The position numbers were made by a program, and so were the translations under genes. 64,000 bases of DNA from Alphaproteobacteria bacterium. Its GTDB lineage: Bacteria; Pseudomonadota; Alphaproteobacteria; Rickettsiales; SXRF01. The DNA lies in contig JAGVLO010000002.1 in the NCBI GenBank assembly GCA_020049775.1, positions 1-64,000 on the forward strand, read 5' to 3'. A model generated the notes under the pieces. It searched no databases, was not told the origin of the DNA, and saw only the letters and a list, made by a program, of their open reading frames with translations. Positions 1 through 36,373 of this stretch are shown here, in pieces (position 1 is the stretch's first letter; each line of letters opens with the position of its first letter).

Positions 1-964
1 CCCAAGATCTATTTGTAATATGTGGGTAATAATAAATAACCATAACCGACACGGGCATGTGAAAGAGCATAACGCCGTATGCCAACTTGCCTAGATTATC
101 ATCCATGATGGATATCCAGCGCGGCAATGTTTTAGAATCTATATGAATTAAATAATAAATGACGAGTACACCGCAGCCCAAGGTAACGTATTTCCCTATA
201 GATGCTACATTTCCCCACCATTCATACTTATATATATACCATAAATAAAATGTTATTATCCCGAATCCCATCACATGTAAAAACCAATGGCTATTAAATC
301 TCCGAGTATAGTATAGGCAAATTCCTAACATAAATGGCAGTAATGCAGCCGTAGTGCTAAAATAACGAAGGCAATACCACGTATTTCCTGTGCTTTTATA
401 TTGCAGATAATCCAAGGAAAACATTGTCGCGGTAAATATAAACCCCAAAACAAGACCTGCCACTCGTATGCGGTAAGACTCAACAAAATATGGCATCAAC
501 AGCCAAAAAAGAAGTTCTACACCTACTGACCAACCGGGAATAACATACGCAGGGCGTATCAGCGAACAATTGGTATCCGTTGAATCTATAAGAATTATAT
601 TCGAAATAAAGTTCGCCAGCGTAACATGGTTTTCCAATGGATTAACGTAGTAAAAACGTGGATCTGTTACGGAAGTAATGTGAGGAAAGTGATAAGCTAG
701 GTAGAATCCAATCACGAGCGCTATCCAGTACAGAGGATAAATACGCAAAAAACGATTTACAAAAAATCTACTCAAGCCATTTTCGGTTCTCAGATAATCA
801 TTGACCAGAACGTATGTAATGACATAGCCGCTCAAGGCATAAAAAACAAAAACAGCATCATGTGATATGCTTTGGGAAAAAGGCCCCACATGCCCCATAA
901 AGACACAGCATGCCAAAAAGAACCTTAAAGATCCTAGTGTCCCGTAAGTTTGCTTCTTTACCAT
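1..964 (-). CDS. Acyltransferase 3 family membrane protein, C-terminus cut by window edge
   Basis: The frame is open from ATG at 964 to the window edge, about 321 residues, with no stop, so the 3' end lies outside. It is very hydrophobic with many membrane segments. Hallmarks of the membrane acyltransferase 3 (OafA/NodX-like) family are visible: an early GH pair (MGHVGPF), an SGY motif (FYALSGYVIT), the arginine motif RFLRIYPLYW, and WSVGVELLFW in the middle. By family, such proteins move acetyl or other acyl groups onto surface sugars such as O-antigen or peptidoglycan. The substrate cannot be read from sequence. It follows lysA on the same strand after a 20-base gap, so it may be read through from it, though the two have no obvious functional link. 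Confidence 0.85.
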   Translation of the reverse strand, partial: MVKKQTYGTLGSLRFFLACCVFMGHVGPFSQSISHDAVFVFYALSGYVITYVLVNDYLRTENGLSRFFVNRFLRIYPLYWIALVIGFYLAYHFPHITSVTDPRFYYVNPLENHVTLANFISNIILIDSTDTNCSLIRPAYVIPGWSVGVELLFWLLMPYFVESYRIRVAGLVLGFIFTATMFSLDYLQYKSTGNTWYCLRYFSTTAALLPFMLGICLYYTRRFNSHWFLHVMGFGIITFYLWYIYKYEWWGNVASIGKYVTLGCGVLVIYYLIHIDSKTLPRWISIMDDNLGKLAYGVMLFHMPVSVMVIYYYPHITNRSW

Positions 965-984
965 ATCGCTATAATTTATGTAAG

Positions 985-2241
985 TTACCAAGAAGGTATA
1001 TAATCACGCGATAATAATTCATCGTAGGTCTGGCGTTTCCTGACCACTTCATATTTGCTGCCGTTGACCATGACCTCGGCCACCAGTGGACGCGCATTAT
1101 ACGTGCTGGACATGGACGCGCCATATGCACCTGCAGAGCGGAACGCCAGCAAGTCCCCTGCCTCGGGAAGCTGCAACATGCGCTGCTCGGCGAATATATC
1201 TCCGGTTTCACACACTGGCCCTACAATATCCACCGCCTCAGGTTTTACAGAAGCAGCAGGCGCAACCACAGGAACGATATGGTGATACGCCCCGTAGAGT
1301 GAAGGGCGAATCAAATCATTCATCGCCGCGTCCACAATCACAAAATTGCGTGTCTCACTCTTCTTGACGTAAATAACGCGCGACACAAGAATACCCGCAT
1401 TACCCACCAGAACGCGCCCCGGCTCAAAAACCAGCTGGCAACCGATGCCTTTAGTTTCCTGCTTGGCAATTTCAGCATAGCTGTCCGGCAGCGGCGGTTC
1501 GTCTTCGCCGTAGGGAATGCCCAGCCCGCCACCTAGATCCAGTGTACTAATGGTAAAACCTTCCTTGCGCAGCTCATCAACAAATATTCGTACACGGGCA
1601 AATGCCTGCTGGAAAGGCTCAAGCTGCGTGAGCTGCGAACCGATATGCACCGACACACCCTGAACATTGATACCAGCCAGCTTTGCCGCCAATTTATAAA
1701 GCGGTAGCGCGTGCGCAATCGCCACGCCGAATTTAGTTTCCTTCATGCCGGTGGAAATCTTGGCGTGGGTTTTTGGGTCCACATCCGGATTCACACGGAT
1801 GGCAATATTTGCTTTCTTGCCTTTCGACACTGCCACCTGATTGAGCAGTTCCACCTCCGGTGCCGACTCGACATTGAACTGGAAAATATCCTGCTCCAGC
1901 GCATAGGCCATTTCCGTGGCCGTCTTGCCCACGCCGGAAAACACGATATCAGACGGCTTGATGCCCGCCGCAATCGCAAGGCGGATTTCACCCTCGGATA
2001 CCACATCAGCGCCACAGCCAAGCTTTGCTAGCGTGTTGAGTATAGCAAGGTTGCTGTTAGCTTTCACCGCATAGCAGACCTTGGCGCCGATATCGGTGAA
2101 ATGGGCAGAAAACACCTTGTAATGGCGCGTGAGCGTTGCCGTGGAATAGCAATAAAAAGGCGTGCCTACTGCCTGCGCGATTGTCTCAAGCGATACGTCC
2201 TCGGCATAATACCTGCCGTCCCTGTAGGAAAAATGATCCAT
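985..2241 (-). CDS. lysA: Diaminopimelate decarboxylase
   Basis: 418 residues, normal length for LysA. It catalyses the PLP-dependent decarboxylation of meso-diaminopimelate to lysine, the last step of lysine synthesis, in the cytoplasm. Visible motifs are the PLP lysine in YAVKANSN (Lys60), the HIGSQ motif near residue 200, the glycine loop LDLGGGLGIPY, EPGR, and the active-site PVCETGDIFA near the C-terminus. The start codon directly abuts the stop of the small lipoprotein gene upstream, so argH, lptM-like and lysA form one tight operon. This order is common in alphaproteobacteria. Confidence 0.97.
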   Translation of the reverse strand: MDHFSYRDGRYYAEDVSLETIAQAVGTPFYCYSTATLTRHYKVFSAHFTDIGAKVCYAVKANSNLAILNTLAKLGCGADVVSEGEIRLAIAAGIKPSDIVFSGVGKTATEMAYALEQDIFQFNVESAPEVELLNQVAVSKGKKANIAIRVNPDVDPKTHAKISTGMKETKFGVAIAHALPLYKLAAKLAGINVQGVSVHIGSQLTQLEPFQQAFARVRIFVDELRKEGFTISTLDLGGGLGIPYGEDEPPLPDSYAEIAKQETKGIGCQLVFEPGRVLVGNAGILVSRVIYVKKSETRNFVIVDAAMNDLIRPSLYGAYHHIVPVVAPAASVKPEAVDIVGPVCETGDIFAEQRMLQLPEAGDLLAFRSAGAYGASMSSTYNARPLVAEVMVNGSKYEVVRKRQTYDELLSRDYIPSW

Positions 2242-6940: not shown

Positions 6941-9900
6941 TTATTTCTTTTTCCTATTGAAGAAGCCCGCCAGCGACATCCTGAGATTATCACCAGACTG
7001 CTCATTCACCCTCGTTACCATGTGATAGGCGTCATTGGCAATAAATACTATGCGGTTTTTCTTAGGAAATACGCACTTGCCGAACCCCTGTTCCACAGCG
7101 ATTTCATCCATGCGGTTGGCATGTAACCACTTACTCTTGTAGAAATCCATACCCCCCATTTCCTCGGCATACTTACGAATCATCCGATTTGCCTCGGGAT
7201 CGAGCATAATCAGCTGCCCCCCCCAATGTGGCCTCCATTCCGGATTCAAAAAGTACACATAAGCACCTGCGTAAACCCCTGCTCCGTCGTCATGCAAGGA
7301 TAGCGCCGTACCATGAGGATATAGCCATGCCGTTACCGAAACATGCCACCAATCCTGCGCCTCTTTGCCACTGACATGCCCAACAGCAGGCTGAGCTGCT
7401 CGCAAACTATCAATAAACCCATCAAATGGTGTTTGCGTAGGATATGCATATGCCGTATCCGGTTTGCTTTCAGGGTCTGCATAATAAAATGCGTTAATTG
7501 TGCTGCGCAATGGAAAGCCGTCATGCACATGCCATGCACGCGTCGATTTTGTAGTATTGATGCGGTCATAATCACAGCGCGTTACAAAGTCGTATAGTTT
7601 TTGGTAGCTCTGCTCTGAAAGAAAATCGTCAAAAATAATGCATTCTTTAGATTCAAACACTTTTTTAGGTTTATGATCTCCGCTGGCACCAATGGTTGAA
7701 GCGGGGCTATTGGAGTTTTGCATGGTATTCTCCTTAATTTCAACAGGTGGCGCATATAGGTCAACGCCTGAAATCTGCTCTGATGCTGATGTAGTCGGAT
7801 GACTTTCTGCCGGCACACCATGTACGGCTTGCGTAACTGTATCTGACTGCTTGTCGTATGAAACATTTTTCCTGAGCCAATCTTTGTAAAAGTTCCTGCT
7901 AAGCTGCAACTCAGAGTGTTGTCTTAGGGTTGGTACAAAATCACGAGGGTTTGCAGGCAAACCTTTTGTCATACAGTAATTGCGACGATAGGCTTCCCCT
8001 TCGTCATCATGGAAGAAACACACAAGTACAAAACGCTCTCCACTGATAACCGGAAGCGCCTCATGCAAGGTGCTGCAAGAGAATACCACACTGCTGCCAA
8101 GCGCAGGACGGTATATATTATCATCGTACTCTGGAAAACGTAACCCACCCCCATCATAATTATCAGAGAGGTGTACGGTTGCCGCAACACGCCTGTAGCC
8201 CAACGGATTATCAAAATTATCACGGTGCTGCTTGAAGAATCCTTGGTTTTCACCATTGTATAAACCAACTTTATACTGTTCACGCCTGGTGACATCAAAT
8301 CCAAATATCTTCTTAATCTCGGGAAACAAACTGCGTGATAATTTATCATCGATCTCCGCAGTAAGCTGCGCCCTCGGCACATGGTCAATACGCTTCTTTG
8401 CATTTGGCCTGTATGCTTTTTTATCTTCAGCACCCACTGTTCCTTCAAACGTATGGCCTGTACGGAATGAATTTATACATTTTGTACAAAACTCTGGTGT
8501 AAATGTATTGGGAACAATCAGAACGGGAGCAACTTCAGTAATGACGTGGCGATTACTATTTTTTGATTTGAATGATTGAATAGCTGCGCGGCAATCTTCA
8601 GTGCAAATCAATGCCAATTGCTTTGCATCATCCGAAACATGGCGCTTGATAATTTTGAGATTCTGGTCAAGCACAAAGCCTGTTGCCCTAATGGTTACGT
8701 CACCTTGCTGAGAAATCCCAAGAGACCTTGAAATTCTTCTGTCAGCATCTGACATGAGTATGTGTGGTAACCCGAGCTTTTCTTTTATTTCAAGCAAGCG
8801 TTCAACGGTTGCATCGATAATAAATAGCTGCCACCCATCAATTTTATTATCACCACCGGCACAGGTTTGCAGTTGCCTGAAAAATGCATTGAGAAAATCC
8901 AGATTATCTGATGGCAAGAAAAACAGCATGGAAAATTTTCCACCAAATGTTTCTATTGCCCGCATTTTATGGTTGGTATCAGGCACATGAAAAAGCGGCA
9001 TAAAGTCGCACGGCTCCAGAAGTGTTACCGGAGCATCTTTCTGCAATGCCTGCTTATCATCACGGTTTGACTGAACAGAAACGAGGCTTACAGATGGCTT
9101 GAGAGCATTACCACTCTGCTGCTGATTTTGTACTTTATGATCATCGCTTCTGGTTCCATGAATTTGCATGGTCTGTGTTGGTGTCACAACAGATGCCGGT
9201 CTACCTCTTTGCTGGGCAACCATAGGCATTTCCTGCGATGCCTCGCGGTTTTGCTGGTCAATTTCTGGAATGAAGATAGGGCGATCACGATACTTGTGCA
9301 GATCTTTAATAAATTGGCACCTCAGCGCGCGCTCGTTAGTAGTTTTATTCTTAAAATCTACACCACAATATTCACGATATTGTTCCAGTGTTCTGACCTT
9401 GCCCCACCCGAACTTGTCCAGCTCACGAATAATCTCTGGGTCATTGGACAATTGATAATCAGTCATGTGATTAAAACGCTTGAGTCCTCTTTCCCTAAGA
9501 AAGCGTATTCGCGATTCATCGGCTTGCCTTAAATCACGCCAGTGCAACGGCCGAACTGAACCACCCGGCACTTTGGCATCATTGTAGTAGTGATAAAGAA
9601 ACTGCCTGCGAGAACTGAAAATATCCCATCCATGGGTATATAATCGTGCGGCATAAGAAATTTCCTCCTGATCAAAGTACAGGTATGGATCGTACGGAAC
9701 TTCTTTTATGATTTCTGAACGCGAGAAACAAAAATTTGCCACCATGAATGCTGCGTTTAGCGGCTTTTCCGGCGCACGATCGAGCGCTTCGCCTTGACAA
9801 CGCATATTTCCATCCGGAAAGAATGGCTTAACCCTGCGTATTGTAGGGTTCATATTTTTACCAAGCTTGTTTGGCGGCCAATAAGGTGTTGGACTGCATG

Positions 9901-12900
9901 ACAGTACAGGCTTCTTTGATTCGCATGCTGCCAATTCCTGAATCATGAGGTCGTCCCAGCCAGGAACAAAACGCATATGACTATCTATCATCAACGTGTA
10001 TTCTTCACCATCCCATAACTGTTGCGTCTGGTAGCGCGCCCAGCACACACCTTCCGCCTCACGCCAGTCAACCGGCATAATACGTACCTGCTCAGGGCGG
10101 GTCACAACCTCAAAACAATGCTTGTCTTCTTCTTGGTCAAACTGCCAGCAAATGCCTACAAATATTCGGTCAGGATTGTTCGCCTTCTCAAACAAGTCCT
10201 TTACTGTCCATTGGCATTCGGGATCTCGGTAGCTGGCGATATTAATAAAGATACATCCCGGCTTTGAAATCTGAAAGCTTGTATTACTGTTTGAAGCCGT
10301 CACCGCTGGCAATTTTAGAAATTGCCCTTCTTCTGCTTTGCTAGAAATGGTGCAGTCTGAAAAATTTACGCCACTGAATTTTTGATAATCCTCAAGCGAA
10401 CGTGCCTTGCCAAGACCGTAACGATCAAGTTCTGCAATAATATTATTATCGGTACTTTTTTCGGTTCCTAAAAGATGCCGCACGCGTGCGTAGGACTTAT
10501 TGTTTAACTCTCCCCAGTTTTTATGATCTGCGAAATGGGTGCGGCGATAACTGCGATCCCAGTTATGAAAGGCCACTGTCTTGTTAGGATGATAAATATC
10601 ATAGCCATGCGTCCACAAGCGTGCCGCCAGTGCAATTTCCTGCCCAAAGAAATATAAGTGTGGATCATAAGGCGCATCCTGTATGATGCTGGCAGGCCCA
10701 AAAATCATATGCGCACTAACGAAGGCACCCTGTATAGGCTTACTCGGCATATCTTCGAGCTTGAATGCAGGTTTGCCGTGCATCAGCAAAATTTTATTTT
10801 CATCAAAATGTTTGGCCGCCATGCCAAATATCCAGCCACGATCCAGCGTATCTGGCGGTGTAAACCCCGGAGCGTAACAGGTAATCACTGACTTTGAAGT
10901 GTCAAGTTCGCTCCACATTTTTAATAATGTTTCGTCCCAACCCTGCTCAAAGCGCATGTGGCTGTCAATCTGCAGCGTAAATTCTTCACCTGCCCATAAC
11001 TCTTGCGCTTGCGCACGCGCCCAGCAAGATCCCTGACTTTTCATGGCATCGAACTCACAGACGCGCACTTGCTTAGGGCGTAAATATGGCTCCTTGAAAC
11101 AGGATTTGTCTTCGGCTTTTACATGCTGCCAGCAAATACCTACGTTTACCCTGTCAGGGTAAGTTGCCTTCTCGAACAGATCATTTACTGTGAATTGGCA
11201 ATCAGGATCACGATAGCTCGCTATCTGTACAAAAATCTTTAGGCGCGAAGTCGGAGTATCATTGGTTACATAAATGCTGGAAGCGCTAGAAGCTACTACA
11301 GCACCTTTTTTATCCTTAGAACTCTCACTCGTGGAAACATTGGCGTTTAGTACAAGGTTTGGCACATAACGTTCGTATTTACCCTCTTTGGCCAAATCAC
11401 TAATAGTACGCTTTGCAAAATCTACGCCGCTATACTGCTGGTATTGTTCCAGGCTTCTAGCTATGCCCAGCCCATATTTATCGAGTTCCTGTGTGATTTC
11501 AGGATCCGTACTAATCTCCGTTCCAAGTAAATGACGCACCCTTGCATAGGCTTTTTTGTTCTGGACGCCCCAGTCGCGATGATCGTCAAAATGCGTCTTA
11601 CGCTTGCCTCTGTCCCAGTCATGGAAAATCACAATTTTATTGGGATGGTAGATATTATAACCACTTGTCCATAAGCGTACTGAAACAGATATTTCCTGAC
11701 CGAAGAAGTACAGATGCGGATCAAATGGCACATCTTTGATCATGCTTCCGGGGCCAAACAGCATACAATCCGCAATAAATGCGCCCGACGTCGGCTTTTT
11801 CGGTTCACTTTTGCCAACTTTATAAGCAGGCTTACCACACATCAGGAAGATGTTGTTTTGGTCAAACTCCTTGGCTGCCATTCCATAAAACCAGTCACGC
11901 TGCAGGTCATTGGGCGGGGTGAATCCCGGCGGATACGAAGATAATATCGCCTTCTCATCTTCGCATTCGTACCACATATTTATAAGCGTATCATCCCAAC
12001 CTGGTTCAAAGCGATGATGTGCATCCATGCTCAAGGTAAATTCCTCACCCTGCCACTGTGATTGCGTGAGGTTACGTGCCCAGCACATACCACGGCTTTC
12101 TTTGGCATTGACTTCAATCACTCGCACCTGATCGGGATACGGGTAAGGCACTTCAAAACAGCATGCGTCTTCTTCTTTGACGAATTGCCAGACAACAGAA
12201 ACAAAAACGCGCTCCGGATGCGCGGCCTTATCGAACAAATCCTTGATCGTGTTCTGGCAGTCAATATCACGGTAACTTGGTATCTGCACTAGGATGCGCG
12301 GCAATTCGGATTTTGCAGAAGTTGATTTTTTAGCAGAAGTTTTTTTGGATGATGCCGTCTTTGATGACGTGCTTTTAGCAGTCTTCTTTTTATTCTTGTT
12401 TGCCTTTTCACGAACAGCCATATTCCATCGCCCTTCCAGCGCATTATTTGTGATGCTACGTTTTTGCCAGTTTATGCCTGCAAATTCCCATAAATCTTCC
12501 AGTTTACGCTCATCTCCTAGACCATAATACTCAAGTTCAGCAAGAGCCATTGTATCATCGCTTTTCTCTAAACCAAGCAAATGCTTTATGCGCGCCATAA
12601 TAGCCCTCGATTGTGGCCCGTCTGAACGCCGGTAAGGCTGAATACCCACCAGTTCATCCCGCCTCCAATAATGCCATATTACAAGGCGATTAGGTTGATA
12701 TATGTCAAATCCATGCGTCCAAAGGCGTGCAGAATACGTAATCTCGTCTCCCCAGAACCTGATATGGGGATCGAAGGGTATTTCTTCAATGGTTTCCGAG
12801 CGGCAAAACATAAAATTCGCGATATAAAATGGACAGGGATAAAGCCCCGACCTTTCGTCTCTGTTCAGAGGTGCGGGTACCTTAGTCAGGTGTAACAATT

Positions 12901-14287
12901 GCGGCCTGTTGTCTTCACCAAATTCATGCACACGTATGCGCAACAGATGGTCTGGTGGGATAAAAAGATTATTCGGCGGCGTATAGCGCGGCACGTACGT
13001 GCTAAGCACAGGCTTTTCAGACGGGCAGGATTCCAGCATTTCTATCATTGCTGTGTCCCAACCTTTGGCAACCCGCATATGGCTGTCTATCTGCAGAACA
13101 TACTCTTCGTCCTGCCATAACTTCTGGGCTTGCGAACGCGCCCAGTTAGCGCCCTTGCTGTCTTTAAAATGCACTTGCTGGATACGCACCTGCCACGGAC
13201 GTTCGGAATGTACGGTGCATAAGCTATCCTTTATAGGGTCTATCTGCAGACATATGCCTATAAATACACGCTCTGGGTTATCTGCCATATCAAACAGGTT
13301 GCGAACTGTGGGGTCGGTTTCTGCATCGCGGTAGCTGGCAATATTAACAAAAATTCTTTTTTGCCTGGTGTCATGCTGCACTTCCTCCAGCGCCATCTGC
13401 TTTTCCTCCGCCACAACGGACACTACGGAAGACTTATCGCCACTATGTTTGAGCGCTTGTGCCAGCATAGGCACTTGCGATAGTTTGCTGAACATTTCAA
13501 ATCCAGCCTCTTCCTGCTTGCGGCGCTTTTCATTGCTGGAGGCATATTCAAGGCAGGCTTCTACCAGTTGCTCATAGGGGCGGAACACCAGCGCTTTTTC
13601 ATATGGCCCTTCCAGCTGCTTGTCATCACCCACTTCGGAAACCACGCATTTGCGGTTAGCCAGCATGTAGGACACACGCACCACTTCAAACACATTGGCC
13701 GGTTGCAGATGCACATTCAGTATGACCTTGCTGCGCGCAATCATAGCATCGCGCTGCTCGCCATACATGTCCTGAATCACCTCAACACGCAGGCCGCGCT
13801 CTTTTAGCTCATCAATCAGTTTTTGCCTGCGCTGATGCATCGATCCGATGAAAAGCACATCGATGTCCTGCAGTTCGTTCTTGGGAATACGCGTGAGTTC
13901 AGCCATATAGCCAACGCCGCACATAGTGACATTGGTGATGCCGCGCCTGGCAAGCTCCGCCACATTATTCTGGCTGTAATCCCATACCGGATAACGGCGC
14001 AGGTAATTGATGTACGGATTGCCGGGCAGGAAAAAGCGCGCCTGCTCATGCACCTGCTCAAAATTGTAGATAATCATGTCTTCCGGAAGTTTTATGTCGT
14101 GTCGGTGCAAAACGCCAGCGCCCAGCACAATCACGCGCCCTTTTGCTTCCTCATGCGAACGCACAATCGGCACATCATAGCCCAGTTCCCGAAATGCAGA
14201 TTGCAGGGCAAGTGCCACCTCTTCAAAGCAGCGCGTGTGCCCCTGTGAATTATGCCAGGAATTGACGATCCAGATTGAGTATTGCAT
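6941..14287 (-). CDS. Giant multidomain protein: GT-B glycosyltransferase, four GT60-type GlcNAc-transferase domains, peroxiredoxin-like domain, two 2OG-Fe(II) oxygenases
   Basis: About 2,448 residues from ATG at 14287. A TTG four codons upstream is also open; neither start has a good Shine-Dalgarno. Residues 1-275 resemble a GT-B glycosyltransferase with a C-terminal Rossmann half (IDVLFIGSMHQRR). Four homologous domains follow at about 311-621, 663-966, 1016-1321 and 1344-1651. Each begins [IV]xI[AP]SYRD and keeps D[SA]HxRF..GWD (Asp401, 755, 1108, 1435). They match the Skp1 hydroxyproline GlcNAc-transferase family (GT60, Pfam GlcNAc). A Lys/Ser/Ala linker lies at about 629-658. Residues 1756-1900 look like a peroxiredoxin without its peroxidatic cysteine. 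Residues 1916-2097 are a prolyl-4-hydroxylase-like oxygenase (His2021, Asp2023, His2075, Arg2085). Residues 2211-2444 are a second, divergent oxygenase (His2332, Asp2334, His2422, Arg2436). No signal peptide or membrane segment is seen, so it is probably cytoplasmic. Domain calls are firm; a role in hydroxyproline glycosylation is inferred. Confidence 0.88.
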   Translation of the reverse strand: MQYSIWIVNSWHNSQGHTRCFEEVALALQSAFRELGYDVPIVRSHEEAKGRVIVLGAGVLHRHDIKLPEDMIIYNFEQVHEQARFFLPGNPYINYLRRYPVWDYSQNNVAELARRGITNVTMCGVGYMAELTRIPKNELQDIDVLFIGSMHQRRQKLIDELKERGLRVEVIQDMYGEQRDAMIARSKVILNVHLQPANVFEVVRVSYMLANRKCVVSEVGDDKQLEGPYEKALVFRPYEQLVEACLEYASSNEKRRKQEEAGFEMFSKLSQVPMLAQALKHSGDKSSVVSVVAEEKQMALEEVQHDTRQKRIFVNIASYRDAETDPTVRNLFDMADNPERVFIGICLQIDPIKDSLCTVHSERPWQVRIQQVHFKDSKGANWARSQAQKLWQDEEYVLQIDSHMRVAKGWDTAMIEMLESCPSEKPVLSTYVPRYTPPNNLFIPPDHLLRIRVHEFGEDNRPQLLHLTKVPAPLNRDERSGLYPCPFYIANFMFCRSETIEEIPFDPHIRFWGDEITYSARLWTHGFDIYQPNRLVIWHYWRRDELVGIQPYRRSDGPQSRAIMARIKHLLGLEKSDDTMALAELEYYGLGDERKLEDLWEFAGINWQKRSITNNALEGRWNMAVREKANKNKKKTAKSTSSKTASSKKTSAKKSTSAKSELPRILVQIPSYRDIDCQNTIKDLFDKAAHPERVFVSVVWQFVKEEDACCFEVPYPYPDQVRVIEVNAKESRGMCWARNLTQSQWQGEEFTLSMDAHHRFEPGWDDTLINMWYECEDEKAILSSYPPGFTPPNDLQRDWFYGMAAKEFDQNNIFLMCGKPAYKVGKSEPKKPTSGAFIADCMLFGPGSMIKDVPFDPHLYFFGQEISVSVRLWTSGYNIYHPNKIVIFHDWDRGKRKTHFDDHRDWGVQNKKAYARVRHLLGTEISTDPEITQELDKYGLGIARSLEQYQQYSGVDFAKRTISDLAKEGKYERYVPNLVLNANVSTSESSKDKKGAVVASSASSIYVTNDTPTSRLKIFVQIASYRDPDCQFTVNDLFEKATYPDRVNVGICWQHVKAEDKSCFKEPYLRPKQVRVCEFDAMKSQGSCWARAQAQELWAGEEFTLQIDSHMRFEQGWDETLLKMWSELDTSKSVITCYAPGFTPPDTLDRGWIFGMAAKHFDENKILLMHGKPAFKLEDMPSKPIQGAFVSAHMIFGPASIIQDAPYDPHLYFFGQEIALAARLWTHGYDIYHPNKTVAFHNWDRSYRRTHFADHKNWGELNNKSYARVRHLLGTEKSTDNNIIAELDRYGLGKARSLEDYQKFSGVNFSDCTISSKAEEGQFLKLPAVTASNSNTSFQISKPGCIFINIASYRDPECQWTVKDLFEKANNPDRIFVGICWQFDQEEDKHCFEVVTRPEQVRIMPVDWREAEGVCWARYQTQQLWDGEEYTLMIDSHMRFVPGWDDLMIQELAACESKKPVLSCSPTPYWPPNKLGKNMNPTIRRVKPFFPDGNMRCQGEALDRAPEKPLNAAFMVANFCFSRSEIIKEVPYDPYLYFDQEEISYAARLYTHGWDIFSSRRQFLYHYYNDAKVPGGSVRPLHWRDLRQADESRIRFLRERGLKRFNHMTDYQLSNDPEIIRELDKFGWGKVRTLEQYREYCGVDFKNKTTNERALRCQFIKDLHKYRDRPIFIPEIDQQNREASQEMPMVAQQRGRPASVVTPTQTMQIHGTRSDDHKVQNQQQSGNALKPSVSLVSVQSNRDDKQALQKDAPVTLLEPCDFMPLFHVPDTNHKMRAIETFGGKFSMLFFLPSDNLDFLNAFFRQLQTCAGGDNKIDGWQLFIIDATVERLLEIKEKLGLPHILMSDADRRISRSLGISQQGDVTIRATGFVLDQNLKIIKRHVSDDAKQLALICTEDCRAAIQSFKSKNSNRHVITEVAPVLIVPNTFTPEFCTKCINSFRTGHTFEGTVGAEDKKAYRPNAKKRIDHVPRAQLTAEIDDKLSRSLFPEIKKIFGFDVTRREQYKVGLYNGENQGFFKQHRDNFDNPLGYRRVAATVHLSDNYDGGGLRFPEYDDNIYRPALGSSVVFSCSTLHEALPVISGERFVLVCFFHDDEGEAYRRNYCMTKGLPANPRDFVPTLRQHSELQLSRNFYKDWLRKNVSYDKQSDTVTQAVHGVPAESHPTTSASEQISGVDLYAPPVEIKENTMQNSNSPASTIGASGDHKPKKVFESKECIIFDDFLSEQSYQKLYDFVTRCDYDRINTTKSTRAWHVHDGFPLRSTINAFYYADPESKPDTAYAYPTQTPFDGFIDSLRAAQPAVGHVSGKEAQDWWHVSVTAWLYPHGTALSLHDDGAGVYAGAYVYFLNPEWRPHWGGQLIMLDPEANRMIRKYAEEMGGMDFYKSKWLHANRMDEIAVEQGFGKCVFPKKNRIVFIANDAYHMVTRVNEQSGDNLRMSLAGFFNRKKK

Positions 14288-14395
14288 TTGGGTTAACAAA
14301 AAACGTTTTTTCTAATTGTAGCCGATGGTTATTAATGATTTGCAAATATTTTGGGGCATTGTACTGTTTATTATACCAATATATAAAGATTTTTT

Positions 14396-15214
14396 ATGCA
14401 AATTATCATTCTTGGAATGCACCGCTCCGGCACGTCGGCCACGGCCCGCCTCATTAACATGATGGGAGCGTATTTTGCCCCTGATGGCATGGCACTAGCC
14501 CCAAAACCTGACAATCCCAAGGGGTTTTGGGAACGCCGCGATATGCTGTTCCTTAATGATGAACTGCTGAAATCGCATGGCTGCCGCTGGAATCTGCTGG
14601 CGCAGTGGCGTTTTGAAAATGCCTCCCATGTGTCCGAACCCCTTAAACAACATATGCAGCGGTTGATTGCAGAGATGGATGCGCACCGCCCGTGGTTTCT
14701 CAAGGACCCCCGCCTTTGCCTGACTCTACCCGCATGGCAGCCATTTTTGAAAACCCCGGTGGCAGTTATTGTACACCGCAACCCGCTGGAAATTGCTGTT
14801 TCCCTTGCAAATCGAAATCCGCAGCCTCGGGAATACAGCCTCGCATTATGGGAATATTACGCAGTCGGTATGCTCAATAGCAGCCAGCGCATGCCGCGCA
14901 TTTTTGTGCGTCATGAAGATATTCTCGCAAATCCGGTCAAGGCTTGCAGGATACTGGCAGAGCAACTATCAGGTGCTGGCGTAAACGGGTTATCCATGCC
15001 TGCCACCGACGCAATAGAGAACTTCATTGACCCGCACCTGTACCACGCAAAACCCGCATTATCAGGTGATACCACTCTATCTGCTGAGCAGCAAAAGCTG
15101 GCCGATATACTGCGCGGCATGCTTCCGCAAAATCATACAGTGCAGGTTTCTGCGCAAAGCATGGAAATCATAACGCGGGGATTACCGGAAACGCTTTCAG
15201 GCACACATCACTGA
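14396..15214 (+). CDS. Sulfotransferase family protein
   Basis: 272 residues. The N-terminus carries the 5'-phosphosulfate P-loop of sulfotransferases (ILGMHRSGTSATA, residues 5-17). WFLKDPRLCLTLPAW follows near residue 98, and the 3'-phosphate-binding region IVHRNPLEIAVSL near 122. By family it moves sulfate from PAPS to a carbohydrate, lipid or protein hydroxyl. It diverges from the giant glycosyltransferase/oxygenase gene across about 108 bases, so it may sulfate that glycan, but this is only a neighbour argument. Its 3' end overlaps the convergent nlpD-like gene by seven bases. Confidence 0.87.
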   Translation: MQIIILGMHRSGTSATARLINMMGAYFAPDGMALAPKPDNPKGFWERRDMLFLNDELLKSHGCRWNLLAQWRFENASHVSEPLKQHMQRLIAEMDAHRPWFLKDPRLCLTLPAWQPFLKTPVAVIVHRNPLEIAVSLANRNPQPREYSLALWEYYAVGMLNSSQRMPRIFVRHEDILANPVKACRILAEQLSGAGVNGLSMPATDAIENFIDPHLYHAKPALSGDTTLSAEQQKLADILRGMLPQNHTVQVSAQSMEIITRGLPETLSGTHH

Positions 15215-16188
15215 AGAACGGCCACAGTCCTGTTCAGATGTTTCTGCGGGTCAAGAGACGTTTTGCCGTCTTTAATCGCAAAATGCAGCTGCGGCGTACG
15301 CACATTGCCCGTCGAGCCAACATAACCGATAATATCGCCCTGTTTTACACGCTCGTATTTTTCAACTGTCATACGGTTCAAATGCGCGTAGGTCGTGGTT
15401 TTGCCGTCTTTGTGTTTTAGCAGAATCATATTGCCGTAGCCCTTGAGTTCGTCTCCGGCAAATACAATCTCGCCTTCATCTGCGGCCCATACCGGCTCGC
15501 CTTCGGCTGATGCAATATTGATACCGTCATTCACCCTGCCGCCACCTTTAGGACCAAACGCCGAGACCACTTTCTTGCTGTTCACCGGCCACATGAAACC
15601 AGAGGTTTGCACGGCTTTATCCGGTTGTATGGTAGTTGCCTGTTTTGTGACAGGCGTATCATTACTAATAATGCTGTCGAGCTGGTTTACGGGGCTATTA
15701 GCGGTTTTTTTTTCCGTCATGGCCAATGGCTTTTCAGGTGCCTTGCCCGCAGCCGGTTTCATATCTGCCATATTTTCTGCATCTGTTTCCTCAGTGCGGG
15801 GCTTGCCTGTCCATAAATTAACGGGCTTGTTTTCTACTTTTGCAACCTGAGTGGATGCTTGAATTGCAGGTGCTTTCGCCGTGGCGGAAGGCGGCGGCAA
15901 ATCACTCACCCCGATAGATTCCACGTTCGCGGTTTGCTGTGTATTTTGCGGAACAATGCGCGACGTTGTGACGGATGATTGCGAAGCTGACTGATAGCTG
16001 ATGGGCGCTTTGTAAGTGCTGGCTGATGCGGCCTGATAGCTGTTGCCTTCGACAACGCCGTTGCGGCCAAATATCTGGTGACCCTTGAGTTCCACCTGTG
16101 CAGGTGCCTGTGTGCAGGAGGTGGTAGTAAGCAATATCAGCGCTAAGCCGAAACAAACGAGGCGCGAACGGGTGGCCATCTTAGACAT
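15208..16188 (-). CDS. NlpD-like lipoprotein with degenerate M23/LytM domain
   Basis: 326 residues. The signal peptide ends in LLTTTSC, so it is probably a lipoprotein. A long low-complexity Ala/Ser/Thr/Gln-rich region fills residues 30-200, and a LytM (M23) domain occupies about 200-320. The active-site region reads GGRVNDGINIAS where an active M23 enzyme has HxxxD, so the first zinc ligands are replaced by Asn. LHFAIKDG keeps only one His of the HxH motif. This pattern fits a catalytically dead activator of cell-wall amidases, like E. coli NlpD and EnvC. No LysM repeat is evident. It ends the pcm-surE-serS-tat block, its usual position in alphaproteobacteria. Confidence 0.85.
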   Translation of the reverse strand: MSKMATRSRLVCFGLALILLTTTSCTQAPAQVELKGHQIFGRNGVVEGNSYQAASASTYKAPISYQSASQSSVTTSRIVPQNTQQTANVESIGVSDLPPPSATAKAPAIQASTQVAKVENKPVNLWTGKPRTEETDAENMADMKPAAGKAPEKPLAMTEKKTANSPVNQLDSIISNDTPVTKQATTIQPDKAVQTSGFMWPVNSKKVVSAFGPKGGGRVNDGINIASAEGEPVWAADEGEIVFAGDELKGYGNMILLKHKDGKTTTYAHLNRMTVEKYERVKQGDIIGYVGSTGNVRTPQLHFAIKDGKTSLDPQKHLNRTVAVLQ

Positions 16189-16459
16189 GGCGGGTCTCCT
16201 AACTCTGTTTTTTGTCGTATATCCAAGCTTTAGGCCAGAAAGATTAAATAAGGGTAAAGCCGGTTCTTAAAGCGCCTGTAAAACCATGACTTACTTATGC
16301 TAATCACGAGAACAGCGGCGGATTTACACAAAATCAGGATAAATATTATAAATCAATATATTGAAGTTTATCGTTGCCTGCAATCCATTGACAAATCCCG
16401 CGTTTTGGTTAATACTGCTTAACAGTTTCCTCTTTTTAACCTTGGCTACAAGGTATGAG
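16189..16459. other. Gene-free stretch upstream of the NlpD-like gene
   Basis: AT-rich spacer between the NlpD-like start and the GC-rich patch. I see no open frame worth calling. A TTAA-N6-TTAAC string near 16404-16419 is one base short of a CtrA box. No RNA gene is recognisable. Confidence 0.5.
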
Positions 16460-16472
16460 GTAAACGCCTTCG

Positions 16473-16491
16473 ACAGACACGCCCTGTCTGT
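16473..16491. repeat. Hairpin (7-bp stem, 5-base loop) upstream of the GC-rich small ORF
   Basis: ACAGACA, loop CGCCC, TGTCTGT: a perfect 7-bp inverted repeat starting 48 bases before the ATG of the small ORF. A second hairpin of the same geometry lies after the ORF. It could be an RNA structure in the leader or an operator. Confidence 0.55.
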
Positions 16492-16520
16492 TGAAACACC
16501 CCCGTTCGGAGGTAGCGGTC

Positions 16521-16676
16521 ATGGGCAACTTGTTGATCGTCGGTGGCATCATCGTCGGCTTCGTGCTGGCGGTGTTCGGTCTGATGGTGTTCCTGAGCTG
16601 GCTGTTCGACAGTCCGCCGAAGAAGCCCACAACCCGCAAGCTGGAGATCATTAAGCTGGACGACCGCCGCGGCTGA
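16521..16676 (+). CDS. Small single-span membrane protein in a GC-rich patch
   Basis: 51 residues from ATG at 16521, which has a GGAGG Shine-Dalgarno eight bases upstream (16509-16513). Residues 3-26 form one hydrophobic helix (NLLIVGGIIVGFVLAVFGLM and on). A basic tail follows, SPPKKPTTRKLEIIKLDDRRG. Codons end mostly in G or C (ATC, CTG, GTG, GGC), unlike the neighbours. The surrounding 280 bases are clearly GC-richer than the rest of the window. I recognise no family. Either recent transfer or assembly contamination is possible. The strong ribosome site and the TM-plus-tail design make it a credible gene. Confidence 0.6.
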   Translation: MGNLLIVGGIIVGFVLAVFGLMVFLSWLFDSPPKKPTTRKLEIIKLDDRRG

Positions 16677-16710
16677 ACCCGTGGATAAGTCCAGCGTCGA
16701 CTCGGAGTGT

Positions 16711-16729
16711 GCTTCCCCACAAGGGAAGC
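16711..16729. terminator. Hairpin after the GC-rich small ORF
   Basis: GCTTCCC, loop CACAA, GGGAAGC: a perfect 7-bp stem 34 bases after the ORF stop. It has no strict T-tract (CCTCCGGGTTTAAATTT follows), so termination is plausible but not proven. Confidence 0.45.
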
Positions 16730-16761
16730 CCTCCGGGTTTAAATTTCCTGATTTTCCAAAA

Positions 16762-17454
16762 CTATTTATCCTGCACCAGCGGTACAAAACGCACCGCCAT
16801 CATCTTGTCGGTATGCAGCCCGCCCTGCTCATCCTTACGTATGCGCAGCAACAACTGATCGGCGGCATTATCCCCCACGGGAATAACCAGAACACCACCC
16901 GGCGACAATTGTTCAATCAATGGCTGCGGAATTTCGGCAGCGGCAGCGGTAACGATAATGCGGTCAAACGGCGCTGCTTCTTTCCAGCCGCGCGAACCAT
17001 CGCCACGGCGAGTAACTAAATTATTGAGCTTAAGACTGCGGAAGCGTTCCTCGGCCTGCGCCAGCAAATCGCGGTGGCGCTCGACGGTATAAACGCGGCG
17101 CGCCATACGCGCCAGCACTGCCGCCTGATAACCTGAACCCGTACCCACTTCCAACACACGCATGCGCGGGCTGACATCCAGCGCCCATGTCATCCACGCC
17201 ACCACACTGGGCTGGCTTATGGTCTGGCCGGAGGCAATCGGCAACGCCGTGTCGTCATAGGCATGTTCGCGGAAGGCTTCTTCAACAAACATTTCGCGCG
17301 GAGTGTGTTCAATCGCAGAAAGCACGCGCGTATCGTTAATGCCGCTGTTACGGAGTTTCATGAGCAAGCGTATACGGTCCGACACCGCGTCATTTGAGGT
17401 GGGCGGTGCAGGCGAATAAGCGAACGCATCGCGATATAATAAGGACTTGGTCAC
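16762..17454 (-). CDS. pcm: Protein-L-isoaspartate O-methyltransferase
   Basis: 230 residues. SAM-dependent repair enzyme that methylates L-isoaspartyl residues in aged proteins. Visible motifs are the PCMT N-terminal region (RLLMKLRNSGI, DTRVLSAIEHTPREMFV), the substrate-region ALPIASGQTISQP, and SAM motif I LEVGTGSGYQAAVLA. It follows surE across 34 bases on the same strand; the surE-pcm pairing is widespread in proteobacteria. Confidence 0.95.
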   Translation of the reverse strand: MTKSLLYRDAFAYSPAPPTSNDAVSDRIRLLMKLRNSGINDTRVLSAIEHTPREMFVEEAFREHAYDDTALPIASGQTISQPSVVAWMTWALDVSPRMRVLEVGTGSGYQAAVLARMARRVYTVERHRDLLAQAEERFRSLKLNNLVTRRGDGSRGWKEAAPFDRIIVTAAAAEIPQPLIEQLSPGGVLVIPVGDNAADQLLLRIRKDEQGGLHTDKMMAVRFVPLVQDK

Positions 17455-34399: not shown

Positions 34400-36373
34400 A
34401 TGCCCACCGTACAGGAATACAGGACTAATGTAGTCAACCAGATAACCAGCATGACGGCAGCTGGGGCAGCATCTCCTATACCCGGCGGCGCACCCTTATC
34501 TGATGGTGCCAAGGCAATTTTAAACGAGTACAAAAATTACGCTAGTGGCCTCACCGGTAATCAGCCGATGCAGGAATTCGGCGCATGGGTAGTTGCAAAC
34601 AAAGATCGGCTGACTGCAGCCACTCCCGGCGGACGCGACGCCGTAAATCAAGTCAGGTCCATATATAATGGCTATGTTGGCGATACCACCCCTACTCCAC
34701 CGCCACCTATGACTGCGCTGCGTCAGGAAGCGCAAAAGACATTCGGTAATAACAAGTCACTCCCTCTCGATTCACCAGGCTATGTTCCGCCAGCGGTTAC
34801 CACAACAGAGCTTCCAGGCGGCGAACAGCCGAGTGAAGGTGGTGGCATCATGGGATTTCTGGGCAAAAATAAAGGCGGCATTATTGGTGCTGTTATTGGT
34901 TTCATCATTAACATGGTCACCGGCGGCGGCGGCGGAATCATGGGTATGCTGCTTCCACTCCTGCTTGGTGCAGGTGGCAGCTTGCTTGTTGATGGAGGCA
35001 AGGGAATGCTGGGCGGACTGCTCGGCATGGGCAACAACCAAACTCCTCCGGCACAGGGCGCCGCTCAAGCACAGGGTCAGGGCGTAAATGCCCCTGCTGT
35101 AGCAATGTCCCAATCAGTATCCGGAGTTGACCAGCCCGTCACTATGCTACCCAATGCACAGGTTAAGGTTCGCAACGGTACGCAGGTCATTGACGGAAAT
35201 AACAGCTTTTCAGCCGCAACCGGAACACCTCCGCATGGCAACGAAATTACCCTTATTGAAAGAGGCAACAATGGCGCCCCCGGCTACCAGTACACAGGGC
35301 GTGTTGAAGGCAATAGCTTCCTCATTACAAGCGTAGCAGCATCTGTACCCGGAACCAATCCACCGCAAATGGCTGCACCTGTGCGCCCCAATCCGCCTCT
35401 GTCACTGCCGATTACGCCAGATGGCAACGTCAGCTTTAACCAGCCTTCGTCACCACTGTCCGTCGCACGCACACAGGCAATGGATAAAGTAGCACGTTTC
35501 AACGCGCCCAAAGATCTCCCGCTAACTGAAATCCCAACACCTCCGGGCCAAACACCACAGGTATCCGCGAGGCTTGATCCGGTCGTACGTGATGGCGTCA
35601 CCTATAATGTCACACTGCAGGGTACCCGCAACAGTAGCGGCTTGGTTACCTTCGACCGTGCAACCATGACGCAAACATCCGGCACACCGCCAACTACGAC
35701 TCCTGTAAACAACCCCAATAATGGCGCCCCGTCTTTTGAAGTGCGTAACTTGCCGCCTATGCAGCAATCCAACACTAATCCGAAGAAGGTCTCCATCGCC
35801 GAGGGCCTTGCCAGTAGCATGGGTGAGGATCTTGTCAATTTCTCGCGCAGCGGTCAACGCGCACGCGACCAGCGCAAAAATATTACTGTTAGCGCCATCA
35901 ATAGTTCTCCTGATGCGTCGCAGGCACTCAACAACCTCGAATCAACACTGAGTACCCAGCTTACACAAAGCGGGATGAATCCTCTGGATGCCAACCTTGC
36001 TGCCACCACAGTCAGTAATTTCTATGCCAAGCCCGAGAACCGCGGCCCGAATTTCAATGCAGATGCTTTGAAAGAACAACTCAAAAGCACAATGCGCCCA
36101 GCTATTCCGGGTAATGCCCCGCAGCGTGCGCTCACGGACAGACAGGTGGATGCCATAGTCGCCGAAGTAGGTTCACAAAATTCTGCCATAAACACGGCTG
36201 TCAATGCTAAGCCAATGGCGCCATCACCAACCACTTCCGTATCCAGTATGACTGCGGCTGCCACTATCCCAAGAATAGCACGCCCCGCGGCTGCCCCAAC
36301 CGTTGGCGTAGCAGTAGCCCCGATGGCAATTCCAGGCCTCAATACCGGCACCAGCGCAGGTATTGGCGGCTAA
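34400..36373 (+). CDS. Unassigned protein with glycine-zipper membrane segments (2)
   Basis: 657 residues; no family recognised. Residues 1-95 form a polar helical region, and 96-150 are Pro-rich (DTTPTPPPPM). Residues 148-215 are a glycine-zipper hydrophobic region (GGIIGAVIGFIINMV, GIMGMLLPLLLGAGGSLL). The remaining 440 residues are low-hydrophobicity, rich in Asn/Pro/Thr/Ala/Gln, with little charge. A segment near 250-310 and another near 385-430 resemble each other (TYNVTLQGTRN and YQYTGRVEGN settings), possibly small beta domains. The layout matches the preceding gene at larger scale. A surface or secretion-linked role is possible; nothing proves it. Confidence 0.75.
   Translation: MPTVQEYRTNVVNQITSMTAAGAASPIPGGAPLSDGAKAILNEYKNYASGLTGNQPMQEFGAWVVANKDRLTAATPGGRDAVNQVRSIYNGYVGDTTPTPPPPMTALRQEAQKTFGNNKSLPLDSPGYVPPAVTTTELPGGEQPSEGGGIMGFLGKNKGGIIGAVIGFIINMVTGGGGGIMGMLLPLLLGAGGSLLVDGGKGMLGGLLGMGNNQTPPAQGAAQAQGQGVNAPAVAMSQSVSGVDQPVTMLPNAQVKVRNGTQVIDGNNSFSAATGTPPHGNEITLIERGNNGAPGYQYTGRVEGNSFLITSVAASVPGTNPPQMAAPVRPNPPLSLPITPDGNVSFNQPSSPLSVARTQAMDKVARFNAPKDLPLTEIPTPPGQTPQVSARLDPVVRDGVTYNVTLQGTRNSSGLVTFDRATMTQTSGTPPTTTPVNNPNNGAPSFEVRNLPPMQQSNTNPKKVSIAEGLASSMGEDLVNFSRSGQRARDQRKNITVSAINSSPDASQALNNLESTLSTQLTQSGMNPLDANLAATTVSNFYAKPENRGPNFNADALKEQLKSTMRPAIPGNAPQRALTDRQVDAIVAEVGSQNSAINTAVNAKPMAPSPTTSVSSMTAAATIPRIARPAAAPTVGVAVAPMAIPGLNTGTSAGIGG

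Follow-up and report, generated by a model that had tools for sequence, protein, structure and literature searches.

Glycosylation of hydroxyproline is known from plants, algae, and protists, and the Gnt1 enzyme of Dictyostelium belongs to glycosyltransferase family 60 (GT60). Gnt1 and the prolyl 4-hydroxylase (P4H) PhyA are separate proteins, and the Skp1 glycan is a pentasaccharide (PMC9485057). A trypanosome GT60 enzyme forms GlcNAc-alpha-Thr on mucins (PMC9472816), and DxH stands in for DxD in both GT27 and GT60, which share polypeptide Ser/Thr O-glycosylation (PMC7185993). Single-chain hydroxylase–glycosyltransferases of another type are known in LH3/PLOD3 and mimivirus L230 (procollagen lysyl hydroxylase plus glycosyltransferase). 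Here we describe a giant gene that joins GT60 domains to 2-oxoglutarate (2OG)-Fe(II) oxygenase domains, found in a 64,000-nucleotide stretch, hereafter the window, of an alphaproteobacterial genome (GTDB lineage Rickettsiales; SXRF01; assembly GCA_020049775.1, contig JAGVLO010000002.1, positions 1 to 64,000 of the forward strand). With modest confidence, we consider it probable that the gene product works in the cytosol as a single-chain machine, adding hydroxyl groups and sugars to a surface or exported protein whose glycan is later sulfated.

The giant gene is one intact, stop-free frame of 2448 aa at 6941-14287 on the minus strand, starting at an ATG at 14287 or an alternative TTG at 14299 and stopping at 6941. 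The open frame, Pfam matches (six families at E 0.05, in a scan of this gene and 19 other window genes from 2 to 30883), and a similar build in family genomes define a GT-B-like domain, four GT60 domains, a peroxiredoxin-fold domain, and two 2OG oxygenases, A (OGA) and B (OGB), with borders set using profiles built from relatives. The original prediction, which gave no strand and missed both the peroxiredoxin-fold domain (~1750-1904) and a sulfotransferase partner gene, had read one gene with four GT60-like domains; the frame is indeed intact, and PF11397 (GlcNAc) matches it in four copies with 938 bits in total, the main stretch of each copy scoring 170-210 bits versus a cut-off of 21. No stretch of the protein is hydrophobic enough for a membrane helix (maximum KD19 1.26), so it should, on its sequence, be cytosolic.

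All four GT60 copies are encoded on the minus strand, at 12422-13375 (residues 305-622; DxH 401-403; C-terminal His ~539), 11369-12316 (residues 658-973; DxH 755-757; His ~889), 10313-11254 (residues 1012-1325; DxH 1108-1110; His ~1241), and, for the fourth copy, GT60-4, 9305-10270 (residues 1340-1661; DxH 1435-1437; His ~1566). Copies 2 and 3 are 58.6% identical and the remaining pairs 38.5-43.3%, with the D[SA]H metal site and the C-terminal His retained throughout. The core D[SA]HxRF..GWD that had been proposed for every copy is right in its D[SA]H but too narrow beyond it; copy 1 reads DSHMRV, and the shared core is D[SA]HxR[FV]...WD.

A PDB sequence search with the GT60 profile gave no significant chain. 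The AlphaFold model of GT60-4 (pLDDT 94.5) has the polypeptide N-acetylhexosamine (HexNAc)-transferase fold: in a Foldseek search of the PDB, ranks 1-42 are all GT27 polypeptide GalNAc-transferases, and in VIA 29 GT27 entries score Z 19.2-22.5, the next other fold reaching Z 16.7. This fold match, in line with PMC7185993 and PMC9472816, points to a polypeptide HexNAc-transferase-like role, and judging by the model GT60-4 should work in this way. Copies 1-3, assigned by sequence whereas the GT27-like fold was assessed by model for GT60-4, should do likewise.

Several GT domains together with a sulfotransferase also resemble a glycan assembly line, in which the product of the GT domains would be a polysaccharide of the cell surface or a lipid-linked oligosaccharide, with a sugar or lipid oxidised by the 2OG domains and sulfate added by the sulfotransferase. 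The acyltransferase-3 frame at the left end of the window (2-991) and an OGB relative near an FkbM methyltransferase gene would suit such a line. We nevertheless regard it as improbable, since GT60-4 is nearer to polypeptide GalNAc-transferases than to chondroitin polymerase or GlfT2 (both at Z about 16 in VIA, below GT27), the giant protein has no membrane-helix-like stretch, neither a flippase nor a polymerase occurs among the 19 other window genes scanned, and exported repeat proteins, along with transporters for them, are among the GT60 neighbors in other loci.

The first oxygenase, OGA (7961-8563, minus strand; residues 1909-2109; PF13640), matches 2OG-FeII_Oxy_3 at 75 bits versus a cut-off of 27, with its best stretch at 2010-2093. 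His2021, Asp2023, His2075, and Arg2085, which the original prediction had placed correctly on the printed sequence, are invariant in all eight aligned rows and likewise in a second alignment of seven rows. Against PDB sequences, the OGA profile matches LH3 (1.5e-5), P4H alpha-2 and an unassigned 2OG oxygenase (9e-5 each), bacterial P4H and PKHD (4e-4 each), and P3H1 (0.001); entries that we take to be mimivirus L230 match at 0.06 only. On these profile matches OGA sits among peptide hydroxylases, with Lys and Pro enzymes equally near, and its earlier designation as prolyl-4-hydroxylase-like stands insofar as lysyl and prolyl hydroxylases are its nearest relatives by sequence, but not as a specific assignment to prolyl.

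A second 2OG-Fe(II) domain had also been proposed, and OGB (6947-7660, minus strand; residues 2210-2447; PF13661) bears this out, matching 2OG-FeII_Oxy_4, presumably of Tpa1/OGFOD1 type, at 2322-2386 (40.5 bits versus a cut-off of 27); His2332, Asp2334, His2422, and Arg2436 are invariant in seven rows and in an alignment of eight. In a 289-genome sample of the class, OGB occurs in three genomes: its own, one with a stand-alone OGB, and G126, whose locus L101 carries an OGB-type domain fused to one GT60 and 40% identical to that of the window. L101 is itself a row of an OGB alignment (A4), and its OGB match is by construction; a PDB search with A4 gave a chance match only. Scans of viral contigs with the OGA and OGB profiles found no relatives. 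The genome carries two more 2OG oxygenase frames of ~250-260 aa (contig C11, L249:5439-6224 and 7036-7791).

The giant gene is conserved across its family. PF11397 is present in 11 of 90 genomes, the window's own included (10 of the 16 family members, plus one more from the order), and is rare in the class, with 6 of 385 genomes, own counted. A survey for the same fusion, which the original prediction had suggested, finds giant-type genes in 9 of the 15 other family genomes, several of them cut by contig ends. In the seven relatives with an unbroken GT60 block (G002, G003, G004, G007, G008, G009, and G011), the block counts three or four copies. All eight relatives with contigs extending to the oxygenase part encode one or more 2OG domains; the G011 frame stops within the redoxin domain at a contig end. 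lysK follows the giant gene in all six relatives' loci where the contig covers that side.

On the other side lies the sulfotransferase-like gene, which is divergent from the giant (14396-15214, plus strand; 272 aa; PF13469 at 31.4 bits versus a cut-off of 27) and occupies the same upstream position in all nine relatives' loci where the contig covers it. Its GMHRSGTS and KDP motifs are invariant in seven rows, RSGTS being, we assume, a feature of sulfotransferases that use 3′-phosphoadenosine-5′-phosphosulfate, and the genome encodes an APS kinase within a 668-aa frame. Pairing of the giant with the sulfotransferase gene is strict across the family: in a whole-genome search of 16 genomes the latter is present in all 10 with a giant (own included) and in none of the six without, where completeness reaches just 55% for one giant-free genome, G014, and shared ancestry of the genomes means that the co-occurrences are not independent.

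This stable synteny bears on whether the enzyme could be effector-like, aimed at a protein of a eukaryotic or rival cell such as a Skp1-like one. The prolyl hydroxylase and Gnt1 of Dictyostelium do act on Skp1 (PMC9485057), some relatives carry the label Rickettsiales in their public records, and one unrelated GT60 gene precedes a contractile-injection cluster. Set against these are the large size of the gene, its presence in most family genomes, the conserved lysK–giant–sulfotransferase order, and, among the 19 other window genes scanned, the lack of any type III, IV, or VI secretion gene (a TatC gene is present). ATP/ADP translocase (TLC) was likewise not found in the 16 family genomes (of two genomes from elsewhere in the order, one has five), although this leaves room for host contact. 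Stable synteny and the lack of TLC make an own surface protein likelier than the eukaryotic-like substrate that had been entertained for this gene, and we consider an effector role very improbable.

GT60 genes outside the family show what such enzymes are associated with. Starting from the best 80 of 251 genome GT60 loci, we scanned 66 of the 75 GT60 frames from outside the family (those of at least 400 aa) for partner domains, together with one viral protein (L127) chosen for its 2OG match, the sole such match among 87 viral GT60 frames (own profile). The 67 proteins carry a methyltransferase in 42 cases, PqqD in five (among them L085, L103, and L111, the L085 match being below cut-off), a 2OG domain in four, and AhpC-TSA in two (L054 and L056). 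PqqD, which we take to be the peptide-binding element of enzymes making ribosomally synthesized and post-translationally modified peptides, suggests peptide substrates. Two-domain fusions of GT60 and 2OG thus occur in 3 of the 66 genome proteins (L071, L080, and L101) and in a phage gene present in two viral contigs (L127 and L251).

The fusion at L080 heads an operon on one strand, followed after 14 bases by TpsB and then, 152 bases on, by TpsA, a two-partner secretion exoprotein whose sequence passes into (PEPTPEPTPT)n where the contig stops; this operon places the enzyme beside a candidate substrate. In PDB sequence matches its 2OG part hits P4H alpha-2 at 4e-8 and 2jig, which we take to be an algal P4H, at 1e-5. 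The phage fusion, also of GT60 with a P4H-like domain, lies just after the capsid gene in viral contigs from two metagenomes (L127:1773-3428 and L251:1061-2716), and its 2OG part is 57% identical to that of L080. A search of the class with the L080/L127 oxygenase at E 1e-20 found 3 of 385 genomes, with frames of 259-406 aa counted irrespective of GT60 content, and plasmid and phage collections held no record covering 80% of the L080 fusion. In the family itself, G003 has a second gene with two GT60 domains (L031:2078-6591), followed after 14 bases by three pseudopilin-like genes with type IV pilin-like N termini. Taken together, the L080, phage, and G003 loci suggest that bacterial GT60 enzymes act on exported or structural proteins. 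The proposal that hydroxylation and glycosylation are combined in one chain gains from the GT60 repeats, the hydroxylase-like OGA, and the recurrence of the GT60+2OG fusion elsewhere (L080, L127/L251, L101, and L071), once in an operon with a Pro-rich exoprotein, and is upheld to that extent.

The wider neighborhood of GT60 genes was scanned in 117 proteins (those above 1200 aa were trimmed to 1200, and the counts come from 25 of 108 families). TPR proteins (5) and LuxR-type regulators (4) are commonest; ShlB (3), outer-membrane efflux proteins (3), HlyD (2), ABC exporters (2), and LapD (2) also occur. Thr/Pro tandem repeats, of types TTEPATTEP, TDTPAP, TTEPPV, and others, are concentrated close to GT60 genes, in 18 of 202 frames at most two genes away versus 2 of 357 at greater distance within those loci (Fisher, 6e-7), corresponding to 18 of 63 loci; a looser test gives 22 of 202 versus 8 of 357 (Fisher, 4e-5). 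The test covers 63 of 71 loci, the overlap filter having dropped those whose GT60 frame was lost (L059, L061, L063, L083, L085, L089, L091, and L092), and the mechanical choice of frames may take antisense ones in GC-rich loci. At least 573 of 600 candidate viral-contig stretches were confirmed as GT60, such genes being common in viral contigs. On an Azospirillum thermophilum plasmid (L043:8001-16903), a cluster resembling a contractile injection system (Pvc16_N, sheath, tail, and VgrG) is immediately preceded by a gene of the GlcNAc-transferase family.

These repeats also fit a mucin-type enzyme, whose GT60 domains would put HexNAc on Thr or Ser while its 2OG domains hydroxylate other residues (Lys, Asp/Asn, or Pro), leaving those hydroxyls unglycosylated. 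Such an activity has its model in the GlcNAc-alpha-Thr of trypanosome mucins (PMC9472816), Thr/Pro repeats adjoin GT60 genes with products that lack a 2OG domain, and the methyltransferase found instead in 42 of 67 bacterial or phage GT60 proteins means that partner domains vary. The recurrent fusion of GT60 with a P4H-like domain, and the fact that all eight relatives with sequence extending that far have a 2OG domain, argue instead for a coupled step, and we find the mucin-type alternative rather unlikely.

In the hydroxylating and glycosylating machine that we favor, one or both 2OG-Fe(II) domains would hydroxylate residues of the substrate protein, and GT60-4, which adjoins the oxygenase side, would add the first HexNAc to the peptide, either on the new hydroxyl or on a nearby Thr or Ser. 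The remaining GT60 copies and the GT-B-like domain may modify more sites or lengthen the glycan, and the product of the divergent gene may sulfate it; the substrate is likely a surface or exported protein. We infer the coupling of hydroxylation to glycosylation from the repeated GT60+2OG fusion and the substrate class from GT60 neighbors in other organisms, and the order of the steps, the hydroxylated residue, and the sulfate on the glycan are inferred as well. Proline is a plausible hydroxylation target as far as sequence goes, favored by the P4H-like matches and the Pro-rich exoprotein of L080.

In a tree built from 109 GT60 domains, the last copies of nine giants (the window's and those of eight relatives) group together, mostly with short tips (0.08-0.3), at a support of 90/88 that is short of the firm mark; the exception is G002, whose last copy groups with the penultimate copies of other giants (99/94). 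A wider group around the last copies (88/95) includes L054, L055, L056, and L060. In L054 and L056 an AhpC-TSA domain follows the GT60 part, which suggests that GT60-4, redoxin, and OGA might form a single old module.

Several results weigh against the favored reading. No substrate was found in the genome itself or in the family, and a 60-aa stretch of at least 20% Pro occurs in just two frames of the window, neither of which reaches 20% Ser/Thr where it is richest in Pro. For OGB, PDB sequence searches gave no significant match (best, 6t8m P4H at E 0.11 and 4nhx OGFOD1 at E 0.48), and its stand-alone relative, near FkbM methyltransferase and aldo/keto reductase genes, would suit a small-molecule or glycan substrate too. 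The AlphaFold model of the C-terminal 704 aa is poor (pLDDT 46, from 8 sequences) and usable in its peroxiredoxin-fold part alone, so we claim no fold for OGA or OGB; structure prediction, which had been proposed as a check, thus served well for GT60-4 but not for the C-terminal part. Either oxygenase can be absent in relatives: G007 has OGA and no OGB, and G002 has OGB right behind GT60, with no redoxin-OGA before the contig end. We devised the Thr/Pro repeat test once the repeats had already come to our notice, and in 17 of the 18 repeat-bearing loci the GT60 protein is without a 2OG domain, so that Thr/Ser may be the acceptor there. On this last count Thr may be the main acceptor of the GT60 family, with hydroxylation an added feature.

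RTX repeats (6 of 16 family genomes) and flagellin (15 of 16) were considered as substrates and are not favored, as their distribution does not track the giant gene. The genome encodes flagellins of 906 and 915 aa (L248:6557-9277 and 14174-16921) that are Ser/Thr-rich (24%) and Pro-poor (1%), and long flagellin frames also occur in family genomes without a giant.

The two remaining domains of the giant protein lie on either side of the GT60 block. The N-terminal GT-B-like domain (13400-14287, minus strand; residues 1-296) is weak by Pfam (Glyco_trans_1_2, PF13524, at 16.9 bits, below the cut-off of 25) and has no PDB sequence match at E 0.1. Its alignment defines a conserved family with plasmid relatives, one stand-alone relative being annotated as glycosyltransferase family 1, and the GT-B domain originally proposed is retained in this qualified form. 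The G003 and G008 giants start with GT60 and lack this part, and G007 has no match for it. The peroxiredoxin-fold domain (8576-9040, minus strand; residues 1750-1904) matches AhpC-TSA at 23.9 bits, below the cut-off of 26, and in the confident part of the C-terminal model it matches Bcp1 (TMt 0.82) and PrxQ. None of its four Cys in the window protein lies in a column conserved across eight aligned rows, so it should not be a peroxidase; it is probably a structural or docking piece. A Rhizobium plasmid gene matches residues 1759-2110 in one piece, as redoxin plus OGA in a separate 380-aa protein. Elsewhere in the window, a 657-aa frame (34400-36373, plus strand) has a 60-aa stretch with 22% Pro.

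Our literature searches found no publication joining GT60, bacteria, and 2-oxoglutarate, and none linking bacterial prolyl hydroxylase, hydroxyproline O-glycosylation, and an adhesin. As far as these searches go, the combination of GT60 and 2OG domains in one bacterial chain is new, as are its elaborate eight-domain form and its sulfotransferase partner. Judging by the small GT60+2OG fusions in other organisms, certain bacteria may modify their surface proteins in much the way that eukaryotes modify mucins and hydroxyproline-rich proteins. A bolder proposal, which we offer tentatively and hold to be possible though doubtful, is a bacterial hydroxyproline O-glycosylation with prolyl hydroxylase and GT60s in one chain, extension by GT60 and GT-B, a sulfate cap, and extensin- or mucin-like surface targets, the L080 and phage fusions being its minimal form and the giant its elaborate one. 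If bacteria do glycosylate hydroxyproline by means of a single chain, the origins of the Skp1 pathway and of mucin-type glycosylation may lie in bacteria, simple cells would allow tests of surface glycosylation that depends on O2, and one gene might serve as a tool for producing peptides that are both hydroxylated and glycosylated.

Among known systems, stand-alone bacterial PF11397 proteins of chromosomes, plasmids, and phages share the domain; most have a single GT60, and a methyltransferase frequently accompanies it (42 of 67). Trypanosoma cruzi TcOGNT (GT60) and the animal ppGalNAc-transferases (GT27) resemble the giant in fold, by the GT60-4 model, and in the DxH site; their acceptors are mucin-like, and bacterial GT60 genes lie near Thr/Pro repeats in 18 of 63 loci. 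They are Golgi enzymes, whereas the giant protein is predicted to be cytosolic, and to our knowledge they have no oxygenase domain. HMW1C, a cytosolic GT41 enzyme with no known hydroxylase, glycosylates Asn of two-partner secretion adhesins; as at L080, the glycosyltransferase shares an operon with TpsB and TpsA, but L080 encodes a GT60 fused to a P4H-like domain. LH3 and L230 also combine hydroxylase-like and glycosyltransferase domains in one chain, and LH3 is the best PDB sequence match of OGA. They act through hydroxylysine and other GT families, whereas the giant has multiple GT60 domains, two 2OG domains, and a sulfotransferase gene beside it, with no collagen-type glycosyltransferase domain among its six Pfam families at E 0.05, where the GT domains are GT60. 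In the Skp1 pathway of Dictyostelium, as proposed for the giant, a 2OG hydroxylase and a GT60 HexNAc-transferase act in succession and further GTs extend the glycan. There the enzymes are separate proteins and the target is Skp1, whereas the giant joins its domains in one chain, with a second 2OG domain, a peroxiredoxin-fold domain, and a sulfotransferase partner in addition.

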